From Verrucomicrobia bacterium ADurb.Bin006 (lineage in GTDB: Bacteria > Verrucomicrobiota > Verrucomicrobiia > Limisphaerales > J093), in contig MWFF01000176.1 of the NCBI GenBank assembly GCA_002071485.1, positions 1 through 64,000 of the forward strand: DNA of 64,000 nucleotides, given 5' to 3'. The position numbers and the translations under genes are program-made. Each line of letters starts with the position of its first letter. Position 1 is the first letter of the stretch. The notes under the pieces were generated by a model that had not been told where the DNA came from, did not search any database, and saw only the letters and a program-made list of their open reading frames with translations. Positions 7,473 through 29,886 of the stretch are shown here, piece by piece.

Positions 7473-7748
7473 TCGGCAGACCTGACTGTTCAGGTCTTGA
7501 ACCGCGAATGGCCGCAAATCGAGCGCCTTCGGGTTGGCGAAGCCTTTGGAGTGGGGATGTCCTCGTCCCCGGACAGACTCGATGACCTGTCTTGTTCGCC
7601 AGACGAACTCGTCGTCCGCACCGCCTGTGGACGGGGCGGTCCACGCTCCTGTCCATCGCTGCCCGACACCCTTGGTGGTGCGCGCGGTTCACCGCCGCTT
7701 TGGGATGCGCTGAAGCGCTGGCGCCAACGACTGAACGACTGAACGACT

Positions 7749-9746
7749 ATGTGCGGAATCGCAGGTGTTCTGATCTGTCGCGGTGGCACGCCATCGACCG
7801 ATGGATTGGTGCGGCGCATGCTGGGCATGATCCGCCACCGGGGCCCGGATCAGTTCGGGATTTACCAGAGCGCGGACGTGGCCTTCGGCAACGCCCGTCT
7901 CAGCATCCTCGATCTGAACACCGGACAGCAGCCAATCGGCAATGAGGACCAGACGCTCTGGATCGTCTACAACGGCGAGGTGTTCAACTACCTCGAGTTG
8001 CGCGCGGAATTGCAGACGCGCGGCCACCGGTTCGCGACAGCCAGCGACACAGAGGTCATCTTGCACCTGTACGAGGAGTACGGACCCGACTGTCTGGAGC
8101 GGCTGAATGGCCAGTTTGCGATCGCGATTTGGGACGAGAAGGACCGCTCGTTGTTCCTGGCCCGGGACCGACTCGGCGTGCGCCCGCTCTTCTACACCCA
8201 ACTCGAAGGGACGCTGGTGTTCGGATCCGAAATCAAGGCCATCCTCGCCCATCCCGAGGTTCGAGCCGAACTCGACCCTGTCGCGCTCGATCAGATCTTC
8301 ACCTACTGGTCCACGCTCTCACCGCGCACCTGTTTCCGAGGCATCGTCGAGCTTCCGCCAGGGCATTACCTGGTGGCCAGGGAGGGGCAGGTGCGCGTCA
8401 CACCCTATTGGTGCCTTGCGTTTCCGGAGGATGGCGAGGCACTCGAGGGGGCTGCAGATCGATTGACTGATGATTTCGTCGAGGAACTGCGGGCATTGCT
8501 GGTTGACGCGACCCGGCTTAGGCTGCGGGCCGACGTGCCGGTCGGCGCCTATCTCAGCGGCGGCCTCGACTCATCCACCATCGCTGCCATTATCCGGACT
8601 CTCGGGGTCAGTCAGCTCGACACGTTCTCGATTGCTTTTACCGATTCCCAATTCGACGAAAGCGAATATCAGCGCTGGATGGCGAGGTTCCTTGGCACCG
8701 AGCACCACGTGGTTCTGGCCACGCATGAGGACATCGGACGCGTGTTCCCAGACGTCGTTTGGCACACCGAGACACCGATCATGCGCACGTCGCCGGCGCC
8801 TATGTTTCTGCTGTCGAAGCTCGTCTGCGACCGGCGGTACAAGGTGGTGTTGACGGGCGAAGGCGCCGACGAATTCCTGGCCGGGTACGATATTTTCAAG
8901 GAATCGAAGGTCCGCCGGTTCTGGGCCCAGCAGCCCGATTCGGCGTGGCGTCCGCTGCTCCTCAAGCGGCTCTATCCCGACATCAGCCGCCTGGGCGCGT
9001 CGGGTGCCGGCTTCCTCAAGGCCTTCTTCGGCAACGGCCTCACCGACGTCGACCGTCCAGACTACTCGCACACGGTGCGCTGGCAGAATAACCGTCGGAC
9101 CTGCCGGTTCTTCTCGGAGGAACTCAAGAACAAGGTGGCGCTCGAGCAGGATGAAACCGACAACCACCCCACCTTCCCGCCCGAAATGCCACGGTGGAAT
9201 CCGCTCGCCCGGGCTCAATACTGCGAGATCAGCATCTTCCTGTCGCAGTACCTCTTGTCGTCTCAGGGCGATCGACCCGCGATGGCCCATTCCGTCGAAG
9301 GCCGGTTTCCATTCCTGGACTATCGCGTCGTCGAGTTCTGCAATCGACTGCCGGCGAGATTGAAACTCCGGGCGTTGACGGAGAAATACCTGTTGCGGCG
9401 TGTGGCCGAAAGCTGGCTGCCACCCGAGATCGTCCGGCGCCCGAAACGGCCTTATCGTGCGCCGATTCACCGCAGTTTCTTCCACGCACGCACCCCCGAC
9501 TATGTGCGTGAAGTGTTGGGCGAAACCGCTCTGAAAGGGACTGGACTCTTCAATCCGTCCGCCGTGGCCCATCTGGTGGCGAAGCTCGACGGCGGCAAAG
9601 CCCTAGGCGAGACCGATGACATGGCGTTGGTGGGGATGCTCTCGACGCAACTGGTGAATCGCCTGTTCGTTGAGAGTCCGCGGGCTCGCTCCCCGCTTTC
9701 GGCCGAGGACGACATCAAGGTAGTTGAGCGACGATGCTTTCCATGA
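7749..9746 (+). CDS. Asparagine-synthase-type amidotransferase (glutamine-hydrolysing)
   Basis: A 665-residue cytoplasmic class-II amidotransferase. The mature N-terminus is Met-Cys-Gly-Ile, so Cys2 can act as glutaminase nucleophile. The glutaminase domain covers about residues 2-210 (RHRGPDQFG, NGEVFNYLELR, GSEIKAIL). The synthetase domain follows, with the ATP pyrophosphatase loop SGGLDSS at about residues 269-275 and GEGADEFLAGYD further on. The length and position beside an AMP ligase fit the amidotransferases linked to exosortase loci more than asparagine biosynthesis. It could convert a uronic or carrier-bound acid to its amide, or supply ammonia to the NAD-synthase-like enzyme. The gene is preceded by a short tandem ACGACTGA repeat (7725-7748) that reaches the start codon. 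Confidence 0.85.
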   Translation: MCGIAGVLICRGGTPSTDGLVRRMLGMIRHRGPDQFGIYQSADVAFGNARLSILDLNTGQQPIGNEDQTLWIVYNGEVFNYLELRAELQTRGHRFATASDTEVILHLYEEYGPDCLERLNGQFAIAIWDEKDRSLFLARDRLGVRPLFYTQLEGTLVFGSEIKAILAHPEVRAELDPVALDQIFTYWSTLSPRTCFRGIVELPPGHYLVAREGQVRVTPYWCLAFPEDGEALEGAADRLTDDFVEELRALLVDATRLRLRADVPVGAYLSGGLDSSTIAAIIRTLGVSQLDTFSIAFTDSQFDESEYQRWMARFLGTEHHVVLATHEDIGRVFPDVVWHTETPIMRTSPAPMFLLSKLVCDRRYKVVLTGEGADEFLAGYDIFKESKVRRFWAQQPDSAWRPLLLKRLYPDISRLGASGAGFLKAFFGNGLTDVDRPDYSHTVRWQNNRRTCRFFSEELKNKVALEQDETDNHPTFPPEMPRWNPLARAQYCEISIFLSQYLLSSQGDRPAMAHSVEGRFPFLDYRVVEFCNRLPARLKLRALTEKYLLRRVAESWLPPEIVRRPKRPYRAPIHRSFFHARTPDYVREVLGETALKGTGLFNPSAVAHLVAKLDGGKALGETDDMALVGMLSTQLVNRLFVESPRARSPLSAEDDIKVVERRCFP

Positions 9747-14715: not shown

Positions 14716-14995
14716 AGATCAGAGCGCTTTCGATTCTGTGGGGACTAGATTCAAGGGTTGACCGCCATTGGCACGGCCACGGTTGCGGCGTTTGACCTCT
14801 ATAACGAGCGCCGTCCGCGCATCCGGTTGCCCTTGTGGAGTGATTAGCGGTTCGGACCACAACCTGTAGGCCGCGGGGAATCGAGAAAGTCACCGGAAGG
14901 GTGGTTTTATTATCAGAAATGACGGTGGTGGACGAATCGCATCAATTACATGCGCTGGTCGCAGGCGTGGATGTTGCTTGGGTTGACGTGTTATG
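14716..14995. other. Spacer without a gene
   Basis: Between the VanZ remnant and the first 112-bp repeat I find no motif-bearing frame, RNA or ordered repeat. Confidence 0.5.
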
Positions 14996-15107
14996 TCAGA
15001 GGGCACAGGGCAGAGGTCAGGGGTCAGAGATCAGAGCGTCAGAAGAGGGAGGACAGAATATCAGAAGTCAGAAGTCAGAGAACGGCGAATGGGGATGGGG
15101 GTGGGTG
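14996..15107. repeat. 112-bp direct repeat, left copy (TCAGAGG-word repeat)
   Basis: This 112-base stretch is built from variants of TCAGAGG / TCAGAAG and ends in a G-rich tail, GGGGATGGGGGTGGGTG. It matches 15993-16104 at 107 of 112 positions by direct comparison and in the same orientation. The two copies bracket the first MNT/HEPN gene pair. Confidence 0.9.
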
Positions 15108-15154
15108 GTTTTAGCGGGACAGATTCCTTGTTGTCGAGAGGCGAGCGAAGGCGC

Positions 15155-15493
15155 ATGGTCACCGACATGACTTTGCTCCAGAAACGCGATTTGGCCCGCC
15201 GCCGCCGGCGGCTCGAGGTCTATCTGGACACGCGGGCCCGGCTCCGCGCGGCGCTGGCCCAGTTGATGCCCGGAAACAGAGTCATCGTGTTCGGTTCGCT
15301 GACCCGGCCCGGCGTCTTCAACGACCGCTCGGACGTCGACCTCGCACTGCCCGGTTCGCCGCCACCGGTTGATCCGCTCGAACTGGCGGCGCAACTCATG
15401 GAACGACTGGCTAGGCCCGTGGATGTGGTGCGGTTGGATCGATGCCGGTTCCGCCAGAAGATCCGACTCGAGGGGGAGGAATGGACGATATAG
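15155..15493 (+). CDS. MNT-domain nucleotidyltransferase, antitoxin of a HEPN/MNT pair (copy 1)
   Basis: A protein of about 112 residues with the minimal nucleotidyltransferase fold. The active-site signature is FGSLTRPGVFNDRSDVDLAL: GS, an eleven-residue gap, then D-V-D carrying the metal-binding aspartates. In characterised pairs such an enzyme silences its HEPN partner by adding AMP units to a tyrosine next to the RNase site. The start could be ATG 15155 or 15167; the first is kept because GAAGG lies just upstream. The HEPN gene begins inside its last codons (overlap 15481-15493), which couples their translation. The pair sits between two 112-bp direct repeats. Confidence 0.82.
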   Translation: MVTDMTLLQKRDLARRRRRLEVYLDTRARLRAALAQLMPGNRVIVFGSLTRPGVFNDRSDVDLALPGSPPPVDPLELAAQLMERLARPVDVVRLDRCRFRQKIRLEGEEWTI

Positions 15494-15957
15494 CGCTCCA
15501 AACGTTGCTCGAAGAAATGCGCGACGACTGCCGCGTCGTGCTCGATGCCTTCAACAAGGCGGTCGCTCGGTTCGAGCGCGGCGACGAAGTCGCCTACGAG
15601 AGTTGTGCCCACCAGCTCTGTCGCCTCTATAACGCCTTCGAGCAGATGGCGCTGCGCGTGATCAAGGCATTCGAGAATAACATCGACGACGAACAGGGCT
15701 GGCATAGCGCGCTGTTGAATCGACTCAGCCTCAGTATCCCGGGTGTCCGCCCGGCCCTGTTCGCCCCGGACGCGAAACCGCCACTCCAGGAACTGAAGGC
15801 TTTCAGGCACGTGTTCGTCCATGCCTACGAGCTGACCCTGGATCCCGAGAAACTGGCGCTTTTGATCAAATACGCCCGTCAGGTGACCGACCGCCTGCCG
15901 GCTTGGGTCGAGGCCTTCGTTCACGACGTCGCTCGCGAACAGCGGATCGAGTTGTGA
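15481..15957 (+). CDS. HEPN-domain RNase-like toxin (copy 1)
   Basis: About 158 residues, all helical by eye. The HEPN catalytic motif R-x4-H-x-Y is present as RHVFVHAY at about residues 106-113. The tyrosine is the residue that a partner nucleotidyltransferase modifies in known HepT/MntA systems. The protein overlaps the end of the MNT gene by 13 bases, and a GGAGG stands close before the ATG. The probable role is a ribosome-independent RNase toxin held in check by the MNT protein. The second pair at 17045-17933 is clearly related in organisation and motif (RHLFRHAY) but quite different in the rest of the sequence. Confidence 0.82.
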   Translation: MDDIALQTLLEEMRDDCRVVLDAFNKAVARFERGDEVAYESCAHQLCRLYNAFEQMALRVIKAFENNIDDEQGWHSALLNRLSLSIPGVRPALFAPDAKPPLQELKAFRHVFVHAYELTLDPEKLALLIKYARQVTDRLPAWVEAFVHDVAREQRIEL

Positions 15958-17044: not shown

Positions 17045-17443
17045 ATGAACGATGCCGTCGGAAAGAGTGCATGCGCCGGCACTTGGAGGCCGGAGGACCA
17101 GCGGCTGCGGTCGGCAACCGAGGCTGTCGAGCACCAGCGCGCTGGCGGGCCCCCCTGGGAGTTGAGCCGGCAGGATTGCCTCCGGCTGGCGACCCTGGCC
17201 GCCGATTGCCTGCGGGCTCGGGGGGCGACCCGCGTTCGGCTCTTTGGCTCGCTGGCACGCGGGCGGGCACCCGGGGTGCACAGCGATTTCGACCTGGCAG
17301 TGGAAGGCCTGCCGCCGGAGGCTTACTTGGGTTCGCTGGGCGCACTGCTCCAGCTTTTGCCGATGCCGGTGGATTTGGTGGAAATGGAATCTGCCTCACC
17401 TGAGTTGCGGGAGCGCATCTTGGGAGAGGGGCTTTTGATCTGA
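17045..17443 (+). CDS. MNT-domain nucleotidyltransferase, antitoxin of a HEPN/MNT pair (copy 2)
   Basis: A 132-residue protein with the minimal nucleotidyltransferase motif FGSLARGRAPGVHSDFDLAV, again GS, eleven residues, then D-F-D. The first ~37 residues before WELSRQDCL look atypical, and the true start may be later, although no other ATG exists before the domain. The product is expected to modify or neutralise the HEPN protein whose ATG follows one base after its stop codon. The gene is preceded by another short run of AGAGGTCAGAGG words (16922-16938). Confidence 0.8.
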   Translation: MNDAVGKSACAGTWRPEDQRLRSATEAVEHQRAGGPPWELSRQDCLRLATLAADCLRARGATRVRLFGSLARGRAPGVHSDFDLAVEGLPPEAYLGSLGALLQLLPMPVDLVEMESASPELRERILGEGLLI

Positions 17444-17444
17444 C

Positions 17445-17933
17445 ATGAGGATAGGCATTGCCGACGCGGCAGCCCTGGCAGCCGTACTGCAAAAGGACCT
17501 GGAAGCCATCGCCCAGATCGAGGCGCATGCCGGTCAGTTGCCGGGAACCGGATTGAACCGCGAGCAACTCGAGTCGCTGGGGTTCGCATTGCACAACCTC
17601 TACAACGCCATCGAGAATTCGTTCGCCCAGATCTCGTTGACCTTCGAGAACCACGTCAAAGATCAATCCCGATGGCACCGCGAGTTGCTCGAAAAGATGC
17701 TTCTGGACGTGCCGCCCCTGCGTTCCCGCGTGCTGCCTCCAGCGTGCCGGCCCTTGCTTGCCGATATGCTTGGTTTCCGTCACCTGTTCCGCCATGCTTA
17801 CGATTTCACCCTGGACGAGGCCAAGACAGTCGCCCTCTGGCAACGCTGGCGCACGGAAGGCGCGGCGGTCAAAGAGGGTCTGCGGGGATTCACCGCGGCG
17901 CTGGCGAGCGTCGCCGCAAGTAAGGAGCGTTGA
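17445..17933 (+). CDS. HEPN-domain RNase-like toxin (copy 2)
   Basis: About 162 residues, helical, with the HEPN active-site motif R-x4-H-x-Y as RHLFRHAY in FRHLFRHAYDFTLDEAK. Other conserved features shared with copy 1 are LHNLYNAIEN / LCRLYNAFEQ and WHRELLEKM / WHSALLNRL, which identify the two as members of one family. It starts one base after the MNT stop. The expected role is toxin or growth-arrest RNase. A low-complexity repeat begins at its stop codon. Confidence 0.82.
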   Translation: MRIGIADAAALAAVLQKDLEAIAQIEAHAGQLPGTGLNREQLESLGFALHNLYNAIENSFAQISLTFENHVKDQSRWHRELLEKMLLDVPPLRSRVLPPACRPLLADMLGFRHLFRHAYDFTLDEAKTVALWQRWRTEGAAVKEGLRGFTAALASVAASKER

Positions 17934-18068: not shown

Positions 18069-18257
18069 CCGAGTCCGCTGAGCAGTTCAACAAGGAATGG
18101 TGGCTGCCCGTGAATCCTGTAGCCGTGCCGCGTTGCGCATACGCGTCAATCCAATGAGATCTTCCGCGCTGTTAACAGAGAACAGGTGGTCCTTACGCGC
18201 CGCAGCTCGCAGGTCACCCGACAATGCCCGAATGCAAGGCGCACACCGTTTCTGATC

Positions 18258-19658
18258 ATGAATAGACAACGCGAGTATCAGATGGCGCGTCGTCGTCGAC
18301 GGCTCCCGGTGTGGTGGCGGACGCTTTTGCCCTGCCTGGCCGCCGGTCTGCCCGCGGCCGCACAACAGGCGGTCACCACAGAACCGCCAGCGGAGGCGCT
18401 GCCACAGGACAGTGTCCTGACACTTGTGCCTCTGCCATCGCCGTATGTCTCTCAGCCGTACACGAGCGCAGAATCTCAACGCCTTCCGCCGCTGCCCCCG
18501 ACGCCCAATCTGGGCACGGAAGCCCTGGCTGCGCCCGGTCAGATCGAGTCTCTCCGGATGGGTGTGCTGGCTCCGGCTCCGGCCACAGCGGCTGCGCCTC
18601 GGCGCGAACTGCTCCAATGGGGCAATGTGAGCTTTCATCCGCATGTCTCTTACAATCTGCTTTACGGCACGGGGATACTGTCGGGACCGGACCGGGAGGA
18701 GAACACGCTGCAACAGACCGTGTCGCCGGGCCTGACGTTCCAACTGGGTCCGCAATGGACCTTGGATTACACGGCGAGCCTGAAGTTCTACTCGAACGAG
18801 GCGTATGAAGACACCGTGGATCATCATGTGAATCTGAGCGGATGGGCGACGTGGAATCGCTGGCGGTTCACCGCCGGCTACGCCTATGGCTCGACGAGTT
18901 CCCCGTTGATCGAGACGGCGGCGCAAACGGAGCAGGACACCCACAATGCCCGGGTGGGGGCCGATTACGCGTTCAGCGACCGGACCACGCTCGAACTCAG
19001 CGCGGCTCAGGTCCTCCGGTTCACGACGGCCTACACGGACAGTTGCACATGGTCGACCACGGATTGGGTCAATTACCAATGGCAACCGCGGCTTGCGGTG
19101 GCAGTCGGCGCGGGCTTTGCCTATGACCAAGTGGATCCGGGCACCGACATGACCAGCCAGCGTGTTCTGGGACGGGTGCGTGGCGACGTGGCGCGGAAGC
19201 TGTCCTACACCCTCGAAGGCGGTCTCGAGATTCGGCAGTTCCTCGACACCGATGCGTCGTCGAAACTCTCGCCCACCGTTCAAGGCGCGATCGACTACCA
19301 ACTCGCCGAGCAGACGACGGTGTCGTTGTTCGGTTCGCACGAGATCGGCACTTCGTATTACAGCGATCAGTTCACCGAGACAAGCAGCGTGGGCGCGTCT
19401 GTGCGGCAGCGCCTTTTACGACATTTGTCGCTCGGGGTGAGTGGCGGGTACAACTTCACCAGCTACCGCAGCACGTACTCGACCGACACGGTCGAACGCG
19501 AGGACGATCGGGCGTATGTCGGGGTCAGTCTGAGCACGGTGCTGCGCAAACGCATTAGCGTCTCGGCGTTCTATCGGTACACAGACAACTCGTCCGACAA
19601 CGCAGGTTATTCGTCGGGGGGAAACCAGGTGGGTTTGATGATTTCTTACGCGCTGTAG
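18258..19658 (+). CDS. Outer-membrane beta-barrel protein of the exosortase locus
   Basis: About 466 residues (start 18258; an alternative ATG lies at 18282). An Arg-rich n-region and a hydrophobic stretch ending PAAAQQ form the signal peptide. A Pro/Ala/Glu-rich linker runs to about residue 115. The remainder is regular alternating beta-strand sequence with aromatic girdles (FHPHVSYNLLYGTGIL, WRFTAGYAYGSTSS, VSAFYRYTDNSSDN) and a final strand ending VGLMISYAL, as expected for barrel insertion. This resembles the putative porin-like barrels found beside PEP-CTERM/exopolysaccharide genes. It lies 27 bases before the exosortase gene. A role in outer-membrane passage of polysaccharide is inferred. 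Confidence 0.75.
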   Translation: MNRQREYQMARRRRRLPVWWRTLLPCLAAGLPAAAQQAVTTEPPAEALPQDSVLTLVPLPSPYVSQPYTSAESQRLPPLPPTPNLGTEALAAPGQIESLRMGVLAPAPATAAAPRRELLQWGNVSFHPHVSYNLLYGTGILSGPDREENTLQQTVSPGLTFQLGPQWTLDYTASLKFYSNEAYEDTVDHHVNLSGWATWNRWRFTAGYAYGSTSSPLIETAAQTEQDTHNARVGADYAFSDRTTLELSAAQVLRFTTAYTDSCTWSTTDWVNYQWQPRLAVAVGAGFAYDQVDPGTDMTSQRVLGRVRGDVARKLSYTLEGGLEIRQFLDTDASSKLSPTVQGAIDYQLAEQTTVSLFGSHEIGTSYYSDQFTETSSVGASVRQRLLRHLSLGVSGGYNFTSYRSTYSTDTVEREDDRAYVGVSLSTVLRKRISVSAFYRYTDNSSDNAGYSSGGNQVGLMISYAL

Positions 19659-19685: not shown

Positions 19686-20732
19686 ATGACCTCGGGAACA
19701 GCACAGCGCCGGGTCGGGCCTGCCTGCCGAAGCCTCGGCGCAGGCAGGGGACACGGCCTCCAGAGCGGCGGATGGCGCGGCTTCGCGGTCTGCGGGGCGC
19801 TGGTCACGCTTGCGTTCGCGTGGCCGCTCTGGGATTTGGGCCGGTTCGCCCTGCGGAGCGATTTGTTTTCCCATGTCTTTGTCATTCCGCTGATCAGCGG
19901 CTATCTGATTTGGAAACGGCTCGACTCGGCGTCGCTGCCGCAGTCGACGCGATCGGCCTGGGCATTCGTCCCCGCCGCGTTCAGTCTGTTTCTCCTGGCG
20001 CTGTATTGGACGGTCTTGCGCTCGAGGGGACCGTTGCCTCAAGTCGATGTCCTAAGCCTCATGACCGCGGCGTATTTGGGTCTGATGTTGGCGTGTGCGC
20101 TGGGTTGTCTCGGAACGGGCATCGTCCGCGCCCTGTGCTTTCCGATCACGTTTCTCGCATTCATGATCCCGTGGCCGACGGCCATGATCGATGCGGTCGA
20201 GATCGGTCTGCAGCATGCATCGGCGGAAGCCGCGGCGGTGTTGCTGGCGATGTCGGGGACGCCCTTTGTGCGGGACGGCAAGGTGTTCGATCTGCCCGGG
20301 ATCACGCTCCAGGTAGCGCAGGAGTGCAGCGGCATCCGGTCCAGCTATGTTCTGTCGATTACCGCCGTGCTCGGCGGATATGTGCTGTTGCGGACGGGTT
20401 GGAGGCGGTGGGTGTTGGCGCTCGCAGTGATACCGCTCGGGATCGTGAGGAACGGATTCCGGATTCTGACCATTTCGATGCTGTGTGTGCATGTGTCGCC
20501 CGAGATGATTGATTCGCCGATCCATCGTCGAGGCGGCCCGGTGTTTTTCGTACTGTCGCTGATTCCGTTCTTTCTGCTGCTGCTATGGCTTCGCAAGACC
20601 GAGCGGCGGCGGAAGGCCGAAGGCCCTGACGCATCGCCTCCGATTGGGCAGCAGCAACCGCCGTGTTCGAGGAGTGGTGAGACGCCTTATTCGATGCGCG
20701 CCGCGGCTTCGCTGCCGACTTGTCACTCATGA
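19686..20732 (+). CDS. Exosortase (PEP-CTERM processing membrane protease)
   Basis: A 348-residue polytopic inner-membrane protein with about eight hydrophobic spans. The exosortase active-site residues are present: Cys214 in VAQECSGIRSS, an arginine in GIVRNGFRI and a histidine in SPIHRRGGP near the last span. In the family these cleave proteins carrying PEP-CTERM signals. The first ~35 residues, before WRGFAVCGAL, are encoded partly by a palindromic repeat (19719-19748) and look unrelated to the family; no later ATG exists, so the repeat probably extended the protein. The C-terminal tail after the last span is polar. The stop overlaps the next start (ATGA, 20729-20732), coupling it to the PrsK kinase. 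Confidence 0.9.
   Translation: MTSGTAQRRVGPACRSLGAGRGHGLQSGGWRGFAVCGALVTLAFAWPLWDLGRFALRSDLFSHVFVIPLISGYLIWKRLDSASLPQSTRSAWAFVPAAFSLFLLALYWTVLRSRGPLPQVDVLSLMTAAYLGLMLACALGCLGTGIVRALCFPITFLAFMIPWPTAMIDAVEIGLQHASAEAAAVLLAMSGTPFVRDGKVFDLPGITLQVAQECSGIRSSYVLSITAVLGGYVLLRTGWRRWVLALAVIPLGIVRNGFRILTISMLCVHVSPEMIDSPIHRRGGPVFFVLSLIPFFLLLLWLRKTERRRKAEGPDASPPIGQQQPPCSRSGETPYSMRAAASLPTCHS
19719..19748. repeat. Palindromic repeat within the exosortase N-terminus
   Basis: CCTGCC and GGCAGG arms enclose a second arm pair (GCCGA...TCGGC), giving a nested hairpin about 30 bases long. It lies in the coding region just after the start codon and encodes part of a non-conserved N-terminal extension. Confidence 0.65.
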
Positions 20733-22867
20733 ATATGAACGCATGGGCGGCTTTTGTGGCTGCGGCGTGCGCCGGCGTTCTGGCGCTCACATGGCTGGTG
20801 TTCAAACACCGCCTAGCGACCCACTGGAGCTTCGCCATCGGCTTGTTGCTGGGGGCGGCGGACTCTGCATTGGCCGGGGTTATTGCGAGCAGCGAGTCGG
20901 CGGAGTCGGCGTTTCTATGGCAAGGCCGGAGGATGTGGCTGACGGCGCTGCTGCCGAGCGTGTGGCTGGTGTACAGTCTATGCTACTCGCGAGGCAATTA
21001 TCGCGAGTTCCTCGCCCGGTGGCGATGGGTGCTGGTTGGCGCGGTGCTGATCCCGGTCTCTTTGGCCGCGGGGGCACGCCCGCATTTGGTCGGGGACGCG
21101 ATCGAGCCTGTGTGGGGGCCGGTCCGGTTCATTCCTCTGAGTTGGGGGGGCAAGGCGCTCGAAGTGACCCATCTGCTGGGGTTGTTGCTGGTCCTGATCA
21201 ACCTCGAGAAAACTTTCCGCAGCACGGTGGGAATGATGCGATGGCGCGTCAAGTTCGTCATGCTCGGTCTCGCCGTGATTCTCGGAGGCCGGATGTACGT
21301 CAGCAGCCAGGCGGTGTTGTTCTCGGGAATCCAACTCCCGGTTGTCGGCGTGTTGGGCACGAGTCTGCTGTTGGGAACGCTGCTGCTGGCGTTCTCCTTC
21401 CTGAGGACCGGTTTGAGCGAGGTCGACGTCTATCCGTCGCACGCGTTTCTGTACGGATCGCTGACGATTGTGTTGGTCGGGGTGTATTTGTTGAGCGTCG
21501 GTGTGCTGGCCGAAATCGTCGCGCGGTTTGGGGGCGACCAGGCCTTTGCGCTCAAAGCGTTGCTGTTGCTGCTAACTTTGGTGGGGTTGGCGGTCGTGTT
21601 GATGTCCGACCGCGTTCGGCACCGGACGCAGCAATTCATCAGTCGGCATTTGCGGCGCCCTGTCTACGATTATCGCCGCGTCTGGGCGGCCTTCACCGAA
21701 CGCACGACGTCCCGGCTTGACCAGGCGGATTTGTGCCGCGCCGTGGCGATGCTGATTGCCGAGACGTTCAATACACTGTCGGTCACGGTTTGGGTGGTCG
21801 ATCCGCATCGGCAGCAATTGCGCTTTGGCGCATCGACGGCTTTGACCGAGCAAGCCGCAAACGAACTGCTCGATTTGGGAGACGACAGCGCGGCGGTGAT
21901 CGCGGCCGTGCACGCGGCGCCGACGCCCTTGGACCTCAGTAGTGCCGAGGGCGGCTGGGTTGAGACCCTGAAGCGGTGCAATCCGGACCATTTCAAGAAA
22001 GGCGGGAATCGGGTCTGCGTGCCGCTGGTGGCCGCGGGCGAGGTGCTTGGGCTCATCACGCTGGCCGATCGGGTCAGCGGCGTGCAATTCTCGCATGAGG
22101 ATTACGATTTGCTGAAGTGCATCGGGGATCAAGTGGCCGCGAGTCTTCTCAATCTGCAGTTATCCCGGAAACTGATCGAGGCAAGAGAACTCGAAGCGTT
22201 TCAGTCGATGTCGGCCTTCTTCGTTCACGACCTGAAGAACACGGCGTCGACGCTCTCGTTGATGTTGCGGAACCTGCCGGTGCATTTCAACGATCCTGAG
22301 TTCAGAGCGGATGCTCTGCGCGGGATTGGGGCTTCAGTAGATCGACTCAATGACCTGGTCCAGCGCCTTGCTTTGATCCGCCGCGGGCTCGAGGTGAAGC
22401 CGGTGCTGGCGGATTTGAACCAGTTGGTCAAGGCTGCGCTGGGACAGATCGATGGTGCGGATTCGATCGAGGTGATTCAGGAGTTGCAGTCGGTTCCTCG
22501 ATTGCCGGTCGATCTCGAGCAGTTGCCCAAGGTTCTCACGAATCTGTTGCTCAACGCCCGTGAAGCGATTTCAGGTTCCGGAACCATTCGTGTGGCGACG
22601 ATGGTCCAGGGCGGGCACGCGGTTGTCTCGGTGGCGGACACGGGCTGCGGTATGAGCGCGGAGTTCTTGAGCCGGCGGCTCTTTCGACCCTTTCAAACGA
22701 CCAAGAAGAAGGGGCTGGGGATTGGGATGTTCCAGAGCAAGATGATCATTGAGGCGCATGGCGGGAGAGTCGAGGTCGCGAGCGAGCCTGGTCGCGGCAC
22801 GACGTTCCGTGTGGTGTTGCCGCTGAGTTCGGAGCGCACCGTGGCCGGGAGCGGCTCACTCAGCTAA
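20729..22867 (+). CDS. prsK: PEP-CTERM system histidine kinase, PrsK-like
   Basis: About 712 residues. The N-terminal third has roughly eight to nine membrane spans (MNAWAAFVAAACAGVLAL, then further hydrophobic helices up to LLLLTLVGLAVVLMSD). A GAF-type domain follows at about residues 325-480 (DQADLCRAVAMLIAETFNTL). The phospho-acceptor helix has the PrsK form FFVHDLKNTASTLSLML, and the ATPase domain has LLLNAREAI, VADTGCGM, LFRPFQTTKKKGLGIGM and GRGTTFRVVLPL. The ATG at 20729 overlaps the exosortase stop; a TTG at 20720 is also possible. It presumably senses an envelope or polysaccharide state and phosphorylates one or both PrsR-type regulators downstream. Confidence 0.9.
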   Translation: MNMNAWAAFVAAACAGVLALTWLVFKHRLATHWSFAIGLLLGAADSALAGVIASSESAESAFLWQGRRMWLTALLPSVWLVYSLCYSRGNYREFLARWRWVLVGAVLIPVSLAAGARPHLVGDAIEPVWGPVRFIPLSWGGKALEVTHLLGLLLVLINLEKTFRSTVGMMRWRVKFVMLGLAVILGGRMYVSSQAVLFSGIQLPVVGVLGTSLLLGTLLLAFSFLRTGLSEVDVYPSHAFLYGSLTIVLVGVYLLSVGVLAEIVARFGGDQAFALKALLLLLTLVGLAVVLMSDRVRHRTQQFISRHLRRPVYDYRRVWAAFTERTTSRLDQADLCRAVAMLIAETFNTLSVTVWVVDPHRQQLRFGASTALTEQAANELLDLGDDSAAVIAAVHAAPTPLDLSSAEGGWVETLKRCNPDHFKKGGNRVCVPLVAAGEVLGLITLADRVSGVQFSHEDYDLLKCIGDQVAASLLNLQLSRKLIEARELEAFQSMSAFFVHDLKNTASTLSLMLRNLPVHFNDPEFRADALRGIGASVDRLNDLVQRLALIRRGLEVKPVLADLNQLVKAALGQIDGADSIEVIQELQSVPRLPVDLEQLPKVLTNLLLNAREAISGSGTIRVATMVQGGHAVVSVADTGCGMSAEFLSRRLFRPFQTTKKKGLGIGMFQSKMIIEAHGGRVEVASEPGRGTTFRVVLPLSSERTVAGSGSLS

Positions 22868-22920
22868 TGCGCTCTCGGTGAATCTGGGGGTGACTCGAGA
22901 TCCTGATTCTCGCCGGCGAC

Positions 22921-22970
22921 AGGAGATTACGATTACGATTAGGAATACGATTTAGAATAGGATCAGGAGA
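22921..22970. repeat. ATTACG-word repeat upstream of the first PrsR-type gene
   Basis: The run is built from GATTACGATTACGATTAGGA-type words and ends GATCAGGAG. A shorter relative (GAATACGATCAGGAGCG) lies after the second PrsR-type gene at 26502-26530, so copies bracket the regulator block. No function can be assigned. Confidence 0.6.
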
Positions 22971-23088
22971 CCTCGATGCGAGTTCAGTGGGCTGTTCAAG
23001 CGGGCACTCGTTTTATTGCCTGCGTGCGATCATCCCAAGAACCTGCCGCGGGGTCCTGCGACAGAACCGGATCGAACGACTTTTTTCA

Positions 23089-24477
23089 ATGAAACCCACG
23101 GTATTAATCATCGACGACGACGAGGCTGTCCTCGATCAGTTGAAATGGGCCCTAGCCGACGAATACGAAGTCTTGCTGGCCAAGGACCGGCCGAGCGCCA
23201 TCGAGACATTTCGGGCGCGGCGTCCGGATTTGGCGTTGCTCGACCTCGGTCTGCCGCCGTTACCGAACGATCCACGCGAAGGGATGGCTGCCCTGGCGGA
23301 CATGCGAAATCTGGACCGGCATGCGAAGGTGATTGTCATCAGCGGTCTGAGCGGCAAAGAGACAGCGGCGCGGGCGGTCGGTGAAGGGGCCTGCGATTTC
23401 CTGCTCAAACCGGTGCAAATCGACAGCCTGAAGCTGCTTCTGAGCCACTGCCGCCACGTGGTGACCCTCAAACGCGAATACGAGGAGATCCGGCAGCATA
23501 CCGAGGTCGAGCCGTTCGAGCTTCTTCAAAGTCGAAGCCCGCGGATGGAGGAACTCCTTGAGAACATCCGCAAGGTGGCTACGGCGGAGGCGCCGGTGCT
23601 GATCCTGGGCGAGAGCGGCACGGGGAAGGACGTGGTGGCCCTGGCGATTCACCGGCAGAGCGGGCGTCGGGTCGGACCGTTCGTGAAACTCAACTGCGAC
23701 ATGGCGTCCGAGAGCCTTTTGGAGAGCGAACTGTTCGGGCGCGAGGACGATGCGCGGAGCGACGGGGCGTCCGCGGAAGGTCGGCTCGAGTCGGCGTCCG
23801 GCGGCTCTCTCTTTCTTCAGGATGTGGGCGACTTGCCGCTGAGGTCGCAGGTTCGACTCATGCGGTTGATCGGGGAGCGGGTGGCGGATGGAGTGAAAGA
23901 GCGGCCTTCCGGGGAGACCGCGCCGCGGCTCATTGCTGCATCGAGCAAGGATCTGACCGTCGCAATCGCCAAGGGCAACTTCATCGAGGGCCTGTATTAC
24001 CGACTGGCCGTGCTGGTGATCCGGGTCCCCGCTCTGCGCGACCGCAAGGAGGACATCCGGCAGTTGGCCGAGGCGTTCTTGAAGCGCTTTGCGGCGCAGT
24101 TTGACCGGCCGAATCTGCAATTCGACAGCGAGGCGTTGCGCGCGCTCGATCGGCACGCGTGGCCGGGCAATCTGCGCGAACTTGAGAACTGCGTGCGACG
24201 CGCGGCAATCATGTCGGACACCGACATCCTGAGGGCGGACGATCTTGGGCTGACGCCATCGCACGCACAGCCTGCGGCCGCCGGTTTGCGCGAGGCCCGT
24301 CAAAGCGCCGAGAGGGCGGTGATCATCGGGGCGCTGCGGAAGCACCATGGCAAGATCACGGCAGCCGCGATGGAGTTGGGCATCAGCAGACCCACGTTCT
24401 ACTCGTTGATGGAGAAACTGGGCATCGAACGTCGAAGTCTTATCTGGGACCATTCGGAGGAAACAAGCGAGGAATAG
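23089..24477 (+). CDS. PrsR-type response regulator with a degenerate sigma-54 AAA+ domain
   Basis: About 462 residues. The receiver domain (1-125) has DDDE and the phospho-acceptor aspartate in LALLDLGLPP. The AAA+ domain (about 140-385) keeps Walker A, GESGTGKD. The sigma-54 contact loop GAFTGA is replaced: ELFGREDDARSDGAS stands at residues 214-228. The Walker B end reads LFLQDVGDL (Q244, D245) in place of LFLDEIGEL, and the arginine-finger segment reads FIEGLYYRL in place of FREDLFYRL. The C-terminal Fis-type helix-turn-helix, ITAAAMELGISRPTFYSLM, is intact. The neighbouring paralogue at 25122 has all three features in normal form. This copy can probably receive phosphate and bind DNA but not drive sigma-54 transcription alone. 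Confidence 0.88.
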   Translation: MKPTVLIIDDDEAVLDQLKWALADEYEVLLAKDRPSAIETFRARRPDLALLDLGLPPLPNDPREGMAALADMRNLDRHAKVIVISGLSGKETAARAVGEGACDFLLKPVQIDSLKLLLSHCRHVVTLKREYEEIRQHTEVEPFELLQSRSPRMEELLENIRKVATAEAPVLILGESGTGKDVVALAIHRQSGRRVGPFVKLNCDMASESLLESELFGREDDARSDGASAEGRLESASGGSLFLQDVGDLPLRSQVRLMRLIGERVADGVKERPSGETAPRLIAASSKDLTVAIAKGNFIEGLYYRLAVLVIRVPALRDRKEDIRQLAEAFLKRFAAQFDRPNLQFDSEALRALDRHAWPGNLRELENCVRRAAIMSDTDILRADDLGLTPSHAQPAAAGLREARQSAERAVIIGALRKHHGKITAAAMELGISRPTFYSLMEKLGIERRSLIWDHSEETSEE

Positions 24478-24480
24478 ACA

Positions 24481-25113
24481 ATGAGACAGACAACAACGGA
24501 CGTCGGAAGAGCATCGTTTGCTTGGGCGGTCCTGACTCTGGCGCTGGTCGTCATGCCTTCAGGCTGCCAATCGCACCGCCCCACCTTCATCAGTCCGGCC
24601 GACGCCGAGCCGGACCGGACGATAGTGCTGCGCGAGGGGGATGTCGTGAAGGTCACGTTCCCGGGAAGCCCGAACTTGAACACGACGCAGCAGATTCGGC
24701 GCGACGGCAACATCAACCTGGCATTGGTCGGGGATCTGAAGGCATCCGATTTAACACCGAGTGCCCTCGAGAAGGAGATCCTCAAGGTGTACGGGAACCA
24801 GTTGCTCGCCCCCGAGGTGACCGTCAGTCTCGAGTCCACGGCGTTCTCGGTCTTTGTCACCGGCATGGTGTTGCGACCGGGCAAAGTGACATCGGACCGC
24901 CCGATCACCCTGCTCGAGGCCATCATGGAGTCAGGCGGCTTCGATTACACACGCGCCAACCTGAAGGCCGTGCGGGTGATGCGTCGCGATGGGGAGCGGA
25001 TGAAGACCTTCATCATCGATCTGAAACCCGTGATGGCGGGCGGGCCCGCGCTACCGTTTCACCTTCGCCCGTCGGACATCGTGTACGTGCCCGAACGGTT
25101 TTCGTTGTTCTAA
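24481..25113 (+). CDS. Polysaccharide export (OPX/Wza-like) lipoprotein
   Basis: A 210-residue lipoprotein. The signal sequence ends in the lipobox MPSGC (Cys about residue 29). The Poly_export domain follows as LREGDVVKVTFPGSPNLN, then the SLBB-type domain, VFVTGMVLRPGKV, with LLEAIMESGGF and a final RPSDIVYVPERF. It lacks the large C-terminal helix region of full Wza, as is usual for the short export proteins of exosortase loci. It should form part of the outer-membrane channel for the exopolysaccharide. The gene starts three bases after the degenerate regulator and ends eight bases before the intact one, so all three are likely co-transcribed. Confidence 0.88.
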   Translation: MRQTTTDVGRASFAWAVLTLALVVMPSGCQSHRPTFISPADAEPDRTIVLREGDVVKVTFPGSPNLNTTQQIRRDGNINLALVGDLKASDLTPSALEKEILKVYGNQLLAPEVTVSLESTAFSVFVTGMVLRPGKVTSDRPITLLEAIMESGGFDYTRANLKAVRVMRRDGERMKTFIIDLKPVMAGGPALPFHLRPSDIVYVPERFSLF

Positions 25114-25121
25114 ATGCCGAT

Positions 25122-26507
25122 ATGCAATCCCACCTGCTGATTGTTGACGACGACGACGAAATCCGCTCCCAGCTCAAATGGGCCCTGGGCGGGGCCTACG
25201 CGCTTCTGTTGGCGGGGGATCGTGCGAGAGCACTCGAACAATTTCGAACGTGTCGTCCAATGGTTGTACTGCTCGATCTAGGGCTGCCGCCCAACCCGGA
25301 CTCACCGGAGGAGGGGCTGAGGGTCCTTGCCGATCTGCTTTCGGTCGAGAAACTGACCAAGGTGATCATCGTGACCGGCCAAGGCGAAAAGCACAATGCC
25401 CTCAGGGCGGTCGGGGCCGGCGCCTACGATTTTCTGTCCAAACCGGTCGATCTCGACGAATTGAAGGTCATCCTTCGTCGTGCCTTTCACCTTGCCCGGA
25501 TCGAGCGCGAATACCGGGACCTGCAACGCCGGCTCAATGAGGACGGATTCGAAGACATGCTGGGCGCGAGCCCGTCGATGCAACAACTGTTCACCACCAT
25601 CCGCAAGGTTGCTGCGACCGATGCCCCGGTGTTGATTCTCGGCGAGAGCGGCACGGGCAAGGAGAAGGCTGCGCTGGCGATCCATCGCCGCAGCCAGCGC
25701 AAGGACGGTCCGTTCGTTCCGATCAATTGCAGCGCCATCCCGGAGACCCTTCTCGAAAGCGAGTTGTTCGGACACGAGAAGGGCGCCTTTACCGGCGCCC
25801 ACACCCAGCGCAAAGGCCGGATCCAATCTGCCATTGGAGGCACGCTTTTTCTGGATGAGATCGGCGAGTTGCCGCTGGCGATCCAGGTGAAGCTGTTGCG
25901 CTATCTTCAGGAACACAGGATCGAGCGGGTGGGCGGCCGGGTGCCGATCGAGGTCGATGCGCGTGTGATCGCCGCCACGAACGCCGACTTGGAGCGGGCG
26001 ATTCGCGAGAGCAAGTTTCGCGAGGACCTCTTCTATCGTCTTGCTGTCGTGGTGTTGCATCTGCCGCCATTGCGGCATCGGGGCGGGGATCTGTTGTTGA
26101 TGGGACGGGTCTTTCTGAACAAGTTCGCGGTCGAGTTTGGGCGGGATTCGGCTGGTTTCAGCCCGCAGGCCCTGGCGGCCATGCAGGGCCATTCCTGGCC
26201 CGGCAACGTGCGCGAACTCGAGAATCGCATCAAGCGGGCCGTGATCATGGCCGACGGTCCCCGCATCACGCCCGAAGACCTCGAGTTGACGACTGCGGTC
26301 TCGTCCGGCCAGAGCCCGCGCACCCTTCAGCAGGCGCGGGAGACCGCGGAACGCGAGGTGATCCAGGAGGCTCTGCGGCGCAATGGGGGCAAGATGACCG
26401 CCGTCGCGACCGAACTCGATATCAGCCGTCCCACGCTCTATGAACTGATCGAGAAGCTCGCGATCGAACGCCCGGATCGGAAGGGCGAGTCAACGCCTGC
26501 GGAATAG
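25122..26507 (+). CDS. prsR: PEP-CTERM system sigma-54 response regulator, PrsR-like (intact)
   Basis: About 461 residues, starting at ATG 25122. The receiver domain has DDDDE and VVLLDLGLPP. The AAA+ domain has Walker A GESGTGKE, the sigma-54 loop in GHEKGAFTGAHTQRKG, Walker B LFLDEIGEL and the finger segment FREDLFYRLAV. The C-terminal helix-turn-helix is MTAVATELDISRPTLYELI. It is therefore a complete activator that, once phosphorylated (presumably by the PrsK-like kinase), should switch on sigma-54 promoters of polysaccharide and PEP-CTERM genes. I could not recognise a convincing -24/-12 site in front of the window's genes. It is a close paralogue of 23089-24477, evidently by duplication. 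Confidence 0.9.
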   Translation: MQSHLLIVDDDDEIRSQLKWALGGAYALLLAGDRARALEQFRTCRPMVVLLDLGLPPNPDSPEEGLRVLADLLSVEKLTKVIIVTGQGEKHNALRAVGAGAYDFLSKPVDLDELKVILRRAFHLARIEREYRDLQRRLNEDGFEDMLGASPSMQQLFTTIRKVAATDAPVLILGESGTGKEKAALAIHRRSQRKDGPFVPINCSAIPETLLESELFGHEKGAFTGAHTQRKGRIQSAIGGTLFLDEIGELPLAIQVKLLRYLQEHRIERVGGRVPIEVDARVIAATNADLERAIRESKFREDLFYRLAVVVLHLPPLRHRGGDLLLMGRVFLNKFAVEFGRDSAGFSPQALAAMQGHSWPGNVRELENRIKRAVIMADGPRITPEDLELTTAVSSGQSPRTLQQARETAEREVIQEALRRNGGKMTAVATELDISRPTLYELIEKLAIERPDRKGESTPAE

Positions 26508-26643
26508 AATTACGAATACGATCAGGAGCGGATAGACTCCGGTTGATTGTCCACGCGCGCTTTGCTAAACTATTGAATGTCAACGATCAAGGCTTAACAC
26601 TCAAACCTGAGAGCACCATGCCGCTCCAACCCGAGCACCCTGA
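26502..26643. repeat. Short word repeats between prsR and the TPR gene
   Basis: 26502-26530 repeats the ATTACGAATACGATCAGGA word seen before the first regulator, and 26573-26608 carries a TCAACGATCAAGGCTTAAC block like that at 18005-18068. No gene is present in this gap of 135 bases. Confidence 0.55.
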
Positions 26644-29600
26644 ATGAATAACGCAAATCGAAGTCTCCTGTCCGTGCTGACGATCGCCGCTCTCCTGGGA
26701 GCGGCCGGATGCTCCCGCGAGGCAAAACGCGACCGGCACTACAGCCGGGCGGAGAAGTACTTCGCATCGGAGCAATACGAAAAGGCGATCCTCGAGTACC
26801 GCAACGTGTTGCGGTTGGATCCGACCAATCGCACGGCGCTGCTGCGCGTCGCGCGCATCTTCTTCGAGCAAGGCTCGCCGGTGCAGGCCATGCAGGCCAT
26901 GCAGGCCGCCGATCCGCATCTCGAATCGGACGATCCTGCGCTGCGTTGCCGGCTCGCCGAGTTTCGGCTGGCGATGGGGGACACCGTTCGAGGACGCAAT
27001 GAACTGCTCGATCTGCTGGCGCAGTCTCCAACCAACAGCGATGCCTTGCAATTGCTGGCCGGGCCCGGCACCCCGCCCCAGGAACTGACAAACACGATGG
27101 TCTACCTGGAGCAACTCGACGCCAAGCATCCCAACTCCGCGGCGGTTCTTCTGGCTCGTGCGGCGCTCCTGATCCGGCAGAGGCAGCTCGACACAGCCGA
27201 ACAGTTCGTGCAGCGCGCGTTGCAGTTGGATCCGAATCAGGCGCAGGCGCATGTGCAGATGGGGCAGATTCATCTGCTGCGGACCAACCTGGCTGCCGCC
27301 GACGAAGCGTTCGGAAAGGCTGTCAAACTCGCGCCGCTGCGCTCGCCCGTGCGCACAGCCTACGCCCAGAGCAAGATGGTGTCCGGTAAACCGGACGAAG
27401 CGCGGGCGCTGCTCGAGGATGTGTTGAGCCAGGCGCCCGATTACCTTCCGGCCGCGCTGCTGCTGGCGCGTCTCGATATGCAGGAGAAGAGGCTCGATGA
27501 AGCCCTCGCGCTGACCGGACGCATCGTGTCGAAGGACCCGCTGAACATCGAGGCGCGCCAGTTGCGCACGGAATTGCACAAAGCCAAGGGCCAGCCGGAG
27601 AAAGCGGCGCTCGAATGGGAACAATTCGACCAGAGCGTGTGGCCCAACCCGTTCATCAAGTTGCAGGTCGCGCGTGCTTACCTGTCTGGCGGCGAACGCG
27701 TCAAAGCGGGCGCCGCGCTCGACCAGGCCATCATCGCCGGCTCGAACAGGCTCGATACGGTTGCCATCGAGGCCCGTCTCTTGCGCGCTCAACTGCATGT
27801 CGAAGGCCGCACCCCGGCCGTCGCCGTCGAATCTCTGCAGCGATTGCTCAGCATCACCAACGTCCTCGAGGCGCGGATTCTCCTGATCGATGCCCAGCGC
27901 GGGGCGGGGCGGCTCGACGACGCGGTGGCCACCTGCCAGGGACTGATTCGCGACTATCCGGACAGGCCGGGATTTCCCATGATGCTGGGGATGCTGCTGC
28001 GGGAGCAGGGGGGGGTGGCGGACGCTCGAAACGCGTTCCGCCGTGAACTCGAGCTTTCACCGGGGAACCCGATGGCCCTTTACCAGCTCGTCGATCTCGA
28101 GATTGCCGCCACCAACGCGCCGGCTGCGCTCAAGACGGTGCAGACCGAGCTGGCCCGGACGAACTCGTCGGCTCTGAAGTACCTCGAAGGTCGGGCGCTT
28201 GCGGCCCAGCGCCTTTGGCCTCAGGCGCAGGCATCCCTCGAGGAGTCCATCAGCCTCAACCCACAATTCTCGCTGGCGTACCAATTGCTGGCCGACATCC
28301 ATATCGCCAACACCAACCTGACCGGGGCAGCCCGGCGGCTCGAGGAATTGGTATCGAAGAAGACAAACGATGTTCAGTCGATGGCGATTCTCGGGACGCT
28401 TTACGAGCGGATGGATCAACCCGAACTGGCGCGTGCCAAGTACGAGCAGATTCTCGAAATCAACCCGCAGTTCGTTCCCGCGCTAAACAACCTGGCTTAC
28501 CTGTACACAGAGCGGCTGCCGCAACTCGATCGCGCGCATGAATTCGCCCAAAAGGCGCGCCAATTGGCGCCCGAAGATCCTTCGGTCATGGATACGTTGG
28601 CCTGGGTTCTGCACAAGCGCGGCGAGCACCAGCAGGCCTTGCCATTGCTGCGCGAGGCGGCCCAGAGAGTCCCCGGCAACGCGGAGATTCAATACCACCT
28701 GGGAATGGTCAGCTACATGCTCGGCCAACCGGACGCCGCCCGGGCTGCTCTCGAACGGGCCGTGGCCGCGCCGCAGTCTTTCCCGAGCAAAGCCGAGGCC
28801 CAGCGTCAACTCGCCCTGCTTGCGTCCGGAGCCGCGGCCAGTGGCACGGAGGACAGGGCGACCCTCGAGGCACGAGTCAAGGACCAGCCCAAGAATCTCA
28901 CCGCCCGTTCCAGCCTCGCCGCAGTTTACGAGCAGGAGGGTCAGTTTCCGAAAGCCGCGACTGAATACGAGGAGATCCTTCGGCAGAATCCCAAGGCGGC
29001 GCAGGCGAGTCTGCGCCTGGCCGAACTGAACGCCGGGCCATTGAACGACCCGGCCAAGGCGCTCGAGATGGCCCGCAAGGCGCACGAACTCGCCCCCAAC
29101 GATCCGCGGGCAGCGGGTTTGCTCGGGCGCCTCCTGGCTCGGCGCGGCGATCACGTCCAGGCGTATGGGCTGCTGCAATCCGCCGCGCAGCGAAGTCCGC
29201 AGCAGGCCGATCTGCAATATGACTACGCGTGGGCGGCCTACGCCATGGGACGGGTGGCAGATGCACACCAAGCCATGCGACGCGCCCTCGAAATCCAGCC
29301 GAACTTCCAGGCGGTCGATGCCGCACGCGATTTCGTCGCGATGACGGCCCTTGCGCTCGATCCGCAGGGGCTAGCCCAAGCAGAGCCGCGGATTCGGGAG
29401 ATTCTCGAGGCTGATCCGGATCATGTGCCTGCCTTGATGGCCCAAGCGGCTCTGTTTCGCGCGCGGGCTGACGGCAAGGCGGCGGCGGCGCTTTACGAGC
29501 GGGTGCTTCGGGTGTTCCCGAGGTTTGCGCCGGCCAGTCGCGAGCTGGGGCTGGTGTTGGCGGGCGATCCGGCCCAGGGGCAGAGAGCCTACGATCTGCT

Positions 29601-29886
29601 CTCGAGGACGCGCGAGGCCTTTCCGGACGATGGCGCCGTGGCTCGGGCCCTGGCGTTGCTGAGCTACGCTCGCAAGGACTACCGTTACACAACCACACTG
29701 ATCGAGTCCTATGTCCGGAGGCACCCCGACGACAGCGAGGCCCTGTTCTACCTCGGCATGGCCCAATGCCAAATCAAGCAGACCGATCAGGGCAAGGAAC
29801 AACTTCGGAAGGCGATTGCGGCCGGGTTGAAGGAGCCGCTGCTGGCTGAGGCTAGAAAGGCCTTGGCCGCTCCCTCTTCCCAATAA
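26644..29886 (+). CDS. prsT: Large TPR-repeat lipoprotein, PrsT-like
   Basis: A 1080-residue lipoprotein. The signal peptide ends in the lipobox LGAAGC (about residues 20-25). Almost the entire remainder consists of about twenty-five tetratricopeptide repeats, for example AEKYFASEQYEKAILEYRNV near the start, YEQILEINPQFVPALNNLAY in the middle and FYLGMAQCQIKQTDQGKEQL at the end. The position directly after prsK, prsR and the export lipoprotein, and the length, match the PEP-CTERM system protein PrsT. Such proteins are thought to scaffold polysaccharide assembly or export in the periplasm. A strong terminator follows its stop codon. Confidence 0.85.
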   Translation: MNNANRSLLSVLTIAALLGAAGCSREAKRDRHYSRAEKYFASEQYEKAILEYRNVLRLDPTNRTALLRVARIFFEQGSPVQAMQAMQAADPHLESDDPALRCRLAEFRLAMGDTVRGRNELLDLLAQSPTNSDALQLLAGPGTPPQELTNTMVYLEQLDAKHPNSAAVLLARAALLIRQRQLDTAEQFVQRALQLDPNQAQAHVQMGQIHLLRTNLAAADEAFGKAVKLAPLRSPVRTAYAQSKMVSGKPDEARALLEDVLSQAPDYLPAALLLARLDMQEKRLDEALALTGRIVSKDPLNIEARQLRTELHKAKGQPEKAALEWEQFDQSVWPNPFIKLQVARAYLSGGERVKAGAALDQAIIAGSNRLDTVAIEARLLRAQLHVEGRTPAVAVESLQRLLSITNVLEARILLIDAQRGAGRLDDAVATCQGLIRDYPDRPGFPMMLGMLLREQGGVADARNAFRRELELSPGNPMALYQLVDLEIAATNAPAALKTVQTELARTNSSALKYLEGRALAAQRLWPQAQASLEESISLNPQFSLAYQLLADIHIANTNLTGAARRLEELVSKKTNDVQSMAILGTLYERMDQPELARAKYEQILEINPQFVPALNNLAYLYTERLPQLDRAHEFAQKARQLAPEDPSVMDTLAWVLHKRGEHQQALPLLREAAQRVPGNAEIQYHLGMVSYMLGQPDAARAALERAVAAPQSFPSKAEAQRQLALLASGAAASGTEDRATLEARVKDQPKNLTARSSLAAVYEQEGQFPKAATEYEEILRQNPKAAQASLRLAELNAGPLNDPAKALEMARKAHELAPNDPRAAGLLGRLLARRGDHVQAYGLLQSAAQRSPQQADLQYDYAWAAYAMGRVADAHQAMRRALEIQPNFQAVDAARDFVAMTALALDPQGLAQAEPRIREILEADPDHVPALMAQAALFRARADGKAAAALYERVLRVFPRFAPASRELGLVLAGDPAQGQRAYDLLSRTREAFPDDGAVARALALLSYARKDYRYTTTLIESYVRRHPDDSEALFYLGMAQCQIKQTDQGKEQLRKAIAAGLKEPLLAEARKALAAPSSQ

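Follow-up and report, generated by a model that had tools for sequence, protein, structure and literature searches.

A PrsR paralogue without sigma-54-activating motifs is retained in tandem with a canonical PrsR in a verrucomicrobial exosortase locus

INTRODUCTION

Among kinases, it is well established that a pseudo-enzyme can control its active counterpart. In exosortase loci, the regulator described is PrsR, and Haft et al. reported in 2006 that a 17-base motif ending in TTTACA precedes a sigma-54 motif, an arrangement they saw only in Proteobacteria (PMC1569441). NtrC-type regulators devoid of the GAFTGA loop are also on record, the cited portions of two reports naming VpsR, HupR, R. capsulatus NtrC, Caulobacter NtrC, TyrR and DhaR (PMC10274813, PMC3162934). 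Finally, the part of a further report cited here lists VnfA1/VnfA3, HrpR/HrpS and FleQ/FleT as paralogous sigma-54 activators that are thought to form mixed oligomers (PMC9542535).

Here, we describe an uncultured Verrucomicrobiota bacterium whose exosortase locus contains two PrsR-type regulators, PrsR1 and PrsR2. On the best reading of its sequence, PrsR1 would be the product of a prsR duplication, turned into a retained pseudo-activator.

RESULTS

The window, i.e., the whole stretch of 64,000 nucleotides that was analyzed, contains the order prsK-prsR1-export lipoprotein-prsR2-prsT within the exosortase locus. The genes are the following.

18186-19658, plus strand: putative outer-membrane protein of the exosortase locus (weak TIGR03016 match; conserved in the sister species)
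19686-20732, plus strand: exosortase, nearest to the VPDSG-CTERM-specific XrtC (TIGR04151, 260.7 bits, missing the cut-off of 300; TIGR02602, the general exosortase model, passed)
20720-22867, plus strand: prsK, histidine kinase, likely partner of both regulators (TIGR02916, 399.5 bits, passing the cut-off of 300)
23089-24477, plus strand: prsR1, disarmed PrsR paralogue with receiver, pseudo-AAA domain and Fis-type HTH (translation, PrsR equivalog model, Pfam, motif table)
24481-25113, plus strand: export lipoprotein gene (TIGR03027, 80.7 bits, below cut-off)
25122-26507, plus strand: prsR2, canonical sigma-54 activator and live twin (TIGR02915, 605 bits, above cut-off; all motifs intact)
26644-29886, plus strand: prsT, TPR lipoprotein (TIGR02917, 386 bits, above cut-off)

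The two regulators flank the export lipoprotein gene and the second is canonical, as the preliminary description of this DNA had it. Between prsK and prsR1 lie about 190 bases that contain GATTACGATTACGATTAGGAATACGA repeats (22868-23050), and a stretch resembling this segment comes after prsR2, at 26508; in the sister species, the end of prsK is close to prsR1. Shortly before the exosortase locus are two copies (14993-15957 and 17045-17933) of a gene pair, a nucleotidyltransferase gene and then a HepT-like gene, both resembling MNT-HEPN toxin-antitoxin pairs.

The prsR1 frame encodes 462 amino acids with no internal stop. A start at GTG 22987 was rejected, as the in-frame extension falls in a segment that cannot be aligned with the sister species; ATG 23089 is the correct predicted start. 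Against the PrsR equivalog model TIGR02915 (curated cut-off, 502.6 bits), PrsR2 passes with 605 bits and PrsR1 misses with 437.9 bits, the scores being 436.9 bits for PrsR1 of the sister species and 357.9 bits for its counterpart in a second genus, PrsR1'. Despite this score, PrsR is still the best family for PrsR1, and the gene lies beside prsK in an exosortase locus, the neighborhood of the PrsR equivalog. Response_reg, Sigma54_activat, AAA_lid_14 and HTH_8 domains were detected by Pfam in both proteins, with Sigma54_activat scoring much weaker in PrsR1 (154 bits) than in PrsR2 (239 bits).

Comparison of PrsR1 with 44 canonical PrsR rows in an alignment located changes in three motifs named in the preliminary description, all of which had been read correctly.

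23743-23763, plus strand: L1 loop, KGAFTGA replaced by DDARSDG (residues 219-225 and neighbors; alignment with the 44 canonical rows)
23818-23823, plus strand: Walker B, DE replaced by QD (residues 244-245; alignment and motif table)
23983-23985, plus strand: first arginine finger, R replaced by I299, or by L in the sister species (motif table)

In the L1 stretch, PrsR2 reads ELFG-HEKGAFTGAH-TQRKGR and PrsR1, shorter by one residue, ELFG-REDDARSDG-ASAEGR; the L1 lysine and GAFTGA are thus lost, with K and G (44 of 44 canonical rows) replaced by D, F by R and G by D. The canonical Walker B LFLDEIG has become LFLQDVG (Q244, D245), and the arginine-finger segment FREDLFYRL has become FIEGLYYRL, in which R299 is replaced by I while the second finger, R305, is kept. 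Two losses come in addition to those noted earlier: sensor I has changed from TN to SS (285-286), and the acid of the recognition helix (E or D in 44 of 44 canonical relatives) has been replaced by a serine, S439. Retention of Walker A, the receiver aspartate and the Fis-type HTH, which had also been claimed, was confirmed by the motif table: the receiver has D9-D11, the phosphoacceptor D52, S85 and K107, the central domain has Walker A GESGTGK, switch Asn 202 and sensor II R363, and the HTH has S433-R434-P435-T436..Y438. The view of PrsR1 as a PrsR paralogue in which the sigma-54-activating machinery is gone and receiver and HTH remain is therefore upheld.

Among the features of a functional bEBP, PrsR1 possesses Walker A but neither GAFTGA, nor the Walker B DE, nor both fingers. 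The equivalent residues of PspF are D107/E108 for Walker B, N64 for the switch and R162/R168 for the fingers (PMC12054792). By itself, the altered Walker B would be no proof of inactivity, since the E108Q variant of PspF, in the cited part of the source, fails to hydrolyze ATP and yet still remodels (PMC4132715). It is the loss of GAFTGA together with the remaining losses that makes the case for inactivity, and a protein with this set of residues should not carry out normal sigma-54 activation.

The preliminary description had proposed to look for the same pair in related genomes. A second species of the genus (G001, contig JAKLFY010000033) displays an identical gene order and a PrsR1 that is 95% identical and bears the same motif losses, and a chance, assembly or frameshift artefact in prsR1 was rejected on this ground; dS between this orthologue and that of the present genome (G000) is about 0.16-0.18. 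In a second genus of the family (G009), the order is prsT-prsK-prsR1'-lipoprotein-prsR2, and the losses of PrsR1' are different but equivalent: GAFTGA has become AGGTVG, the Walker B DE has become SE, sensor I is SC and the recognition-helix acid is N, while the fingers are the reverse of those of PrsR1, the second being lost and the first kept. The receiver acids D9/D10 of PrsR1' are A/G, so that the claim of a kept receiver holds in the genus studied here and fails in the second one. A PrsR1' that is 92% identical occurs in another species of that genus (G011), where it ends at the contig end after residue 213; the receiver loss is therefore seen in two species, and the AAA losses in one.

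In a survey of 320 genomes from the order, with at most 5 candidates scored per genome, two PrsR matches close together on one contig were found only in these two genera, each sampled by two species and all by draft assemblies. Two other members of the family (G002 and G013) have prsK-prsR-lipoprotein with a single canonical PrsR, and the disarmed copy therefore occupies the position that prsR seems to have had ancestrally. In L035 (Zixiibacteriota; 6001-8612) and L048 (1682-4541), PrsR likewise has a second NtrC-type regulator next to it, a distant one, but in the tree these two regulators form a long-branched group of their own and are not PrsR1. In a further family member (G010:C5:7542-8890), a PrsR-like sequence is split over two frames, possibly a broken or misassembled gene.

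In a joint tree, the PrsR1 lineages are united (97/95), as are the PrsR2 lineages (100/97), a result that carries a warning of long-branch attraction, and leave-one-out trees did not settle the attachment of each long PrsR1 branch. PrsR1 and PrsR1' share 13 rare residues, while either shares 0 to 8 with other rows and one outgroup pair shares 12. The identical gene order, the shared rare residues and the joint-tree clade speak for a common origin, and it is likely that a single duplication predated the split of the two genera and that the losses were completed separately.

We then considered selection. For PrsR1, omega between G000 and G001 is 0.152 (95% CI, 0.089-0.238), compared to 0.166 (0.106-0.252) for PrsR2 and 0.12-0.22 for neighboring genes. 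The pseudo-AAA domain is also kept, as its own omega is 0.163 (0.071-0.327), and PrsR1' of the second genus has a value of 0.13 across 213 codons. That the full-length frame is kept by selection, as had been suggested, agrees with 462 amino acids free of internal stops and this non-neutral omega. Replacements in the receiver and AAA domains number 2 and 13 in PrsR1 versus 10 and 6 in PrsR2 (Fisher p=0.009, for a domain split chosen post hoc), the PrsR1 receiver being strongly constrained (2 replacements in 120 codons); the contrast at the C terminus is weaker than apparent, since the PrsR2 changes there lie mostly in linker and tail. R223Q and I299L fall on dead motif positions of PrsR1, in the former GAFTGA and the former finger, respectively, which would be expected of positions that have become free to change.

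Of the columns with a conservation of 95% or more in the canonical rows, PrsR1 is changed in 28 of 79 in the AAA domain, 4 of 34 in the receiver and 3 of 32 in the lid and C terminus, and PrsR1' in 30 of 79, 18 of 34 and 4 of 32, respectively. Both lineages have thus retained lid, DNA-binding domain and nucleotide pocket, and both are without Walker B, GAFTGA and sensor I. The stem branch of PrsR1 measures 1.15 changes per site in the tree, compared to 0.29 for PrsR2, while the present divergence between the two species (0.055 versus 0.066) reveals no excess rate in PrsR1. Such a burst followed by constraint fits a new role better than decay.

With regard to possible targets, the genome encodes one RpoN, about 20 PEP-CTERM genes and also VPDGG-CTERM genes. 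A -24/-12 promoter, TGGCAT-N6-TGCT, lies 29-88 bases before the start in 7 of 7 VPDGG/VPDAG genes (G000, G001 and G009), and motif discovery yielded a 20-base element upstream of it, consensus RTGTCGG-N4-GYTTACA, with a total of 129.8 bits versus 102-110 in block-shuffled controls. In other genomes of the order, matrix matches of at least 12 bits precede 16 of 25 VPDSG-type genes. Upstream of the ordinary PEP-CTERM genes that were scanned, no box reached 12 bits (best, 11.6), and these genes were therefore rejected as the PrsR regulon. Genomes in which PrsR is single carry these boxes too, so that the predicted box would be the site of the canonical protein, which very probably drives VPDSG-CTERM cargo. 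Compared to the proteobacterial motif of 2006 (PMC1569441), the 3' end is alike, but the element lies farther from the promoter. The box and its sigma-54 promoter precede VPDSG/VPDGG-CTERM genes in L103, L107, L104, L106, L112, L105 and L220-L249, and boxes are often paired, about 90-100 bases apart.

The exosortase locus itself, which the preliminary description had proposed as the target of a two-regulator switch, is not an obvious one: boxes are absent from the intergenic regions of the exosortase/prsR operon and sit before distant VPDSG-CTERM genes. In a scan of the window, the best box match was 13.9, at position 1570, and the rest were at most 10.3; the top sigma-54 matches look like chance, none being convincing before operon genes. 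For Verrucomicrobiota, these data provide a predicted PrsR regulon, consisting of a box and a sigma-54 promoter before VPDSG-CTERM cargo, an architecture that the survey of 2006 had reported from Proteobacteria only (PMC1569441).

DISCUSSION

Our tentative reading, which we hold at slightly short of even chances, is that PrsR1 may modulate, and probably brake, PrsR2 at shared boxes or in mixed rings. PrsR1 keeps its DNA-binding domain and its nucleotide-binding pocket (Walker A, switch Asn and sensor II), and its phospho-acceptor receiver is complete in this genus, while normal ATP hydrolysis and sigma-54 engagement would not be expected of it. Together with its place in the prsK operon, these retained features agree with a protein that sits on DNA, holds a nucleotide and responds to a signal. 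We infer that it could occupy PrsR boxes before the sigma-54 promoters of VPDSG-CTERM genes, enter PrsR2 rings as a dead subunit, or both, so that output would be set by the ratio and the phosphorylation of the two proteins. This reading is favored because the tandem and its losses are conserved, omega is low, the rate is no longer raised, and pocket, lid and HTH are kept; because the live twin has a predicted operator and sigma-54 promoter before VPDSG-CTERM genes; and because interacting paralogous activators that share promoters are known, as the cited part of PMC9542535 reports. Against a brake, PrsR1 may bind other sites, since the recognition-helix acid is lost, and phosphorylation would not be general to the mechanism, since the receiver of the second genus is broken. 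It also counts against a brake that the layout of box and promoter shows no visible difference between genomes that have PrsR1 and those that do not. A more specific form strikes us as rather unlikely, namely, that PrsR1 would be a natural dominant-negative, a dead but phosphorylation-competent bEBP subunit that sets the gain of the sigma-54 regulon from within the rings of its twin, reached in two genera through a common duplication with different finger and receiver losses.

The main rival, possible although we doubt it, is that PrsR1 would act like VpsR or HupR, as a phosphorylation-controlled activator or repressor that is independent of sigma-54 and of ATP hydrolysis and works with changed DNA specificity at sigma-70 type promoters of its own. 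Relatives without GAFTGA do work on sigma-70 promoters (PMC10274813, PMC3162934), PrsR1 of this genus has an intact receiver, and both PrsR1 lineages have another residue in place of the recognition-helix acid. However, in both genera PrsR1 is the immediate neighbor of its live twin, an arrangement suggestive of linked function, the recognition-helix core SRPT..Y is retained, and a second class of box was not found.

We consider it improbable that PrsR1 is a phosphate sink, taking phosphoryl groups from PrsK and thereby damping PrsR2: complete and strongly constrained receiver residues in this genus would suit such a role, but a sink has no need to keep HTH, lid and nucleotide pocket, and the receiver acidic pair of the second genus is A/G. 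Very improbable is a productive mixed ring, with PrsR1 as a needed structural subunit raising PrsR2 activity. The nucleotide-binding residues, the lid and one arginine finger are retained in each lineage, and hetero-oligomeric activators exist according to the cited part of the source (PMC9542535); however, PrsR2 is complete, a single PrsR suffices in other genomes with the same boxes, and a ring should become weaker with a subunit devoid of GAFTGA and Walker B. Simple decay of a duplicate, equally remote in our estimate and tied in the preliminary description to an unconserved pair with neutral dN/dS, neither of which was found, could explain the many near-invariant AAA residues altered and the long PrsR1 stem branch, but was rejected given an omega of 0.15 for the whole gene and 0.16 for the AAA domain, conservation of the copy in another species and also in another genus, a present rate not above that of PrsR2, and a frame with neither stop nor frameshift. 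Retention in related species suggests a brake or a re-purposed regulator rather than a dying gene. The two adjacent genes form a compact and conserved pair for which an operator and a promoter are predicted, so that reconstitution in vitro would be feasible.

PrsR1 matches the PrsR of exosortase loci (PMC1569441) in domain order, best family match and position directly after prsK; it differs in falling below the curated cut-off and in having lost GAFTGA, Walker B, sensor I and one finger. With the VpsR/HupR group it shares an NtrC-type architecture in which the sigma-54 contact loop is missing and the Fis HTH is kept (PMC10274813, PMC3162934), but in PrsR1 Walker B, sensor I and a finger are also gone, and its lineage is that of PrsR. 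The cited portions of these two reports do not describe members of that group as disarmed copies in tandem with a live paralogue. VnfA1/VnfA3, HrpR/HrpS and FleQ/FleT are co-activators, and, unlike for PrsR1, the part of the source cited reports no catalytically disarmed partner among them (PMC9542535). In the literature searched, no pseudo-enzyme regulating an active twin is described among sigma-54 activators. Activators lacking GAFTGA were already known; what is new is that the disarmed paralogue and its live twin stand in tandem.
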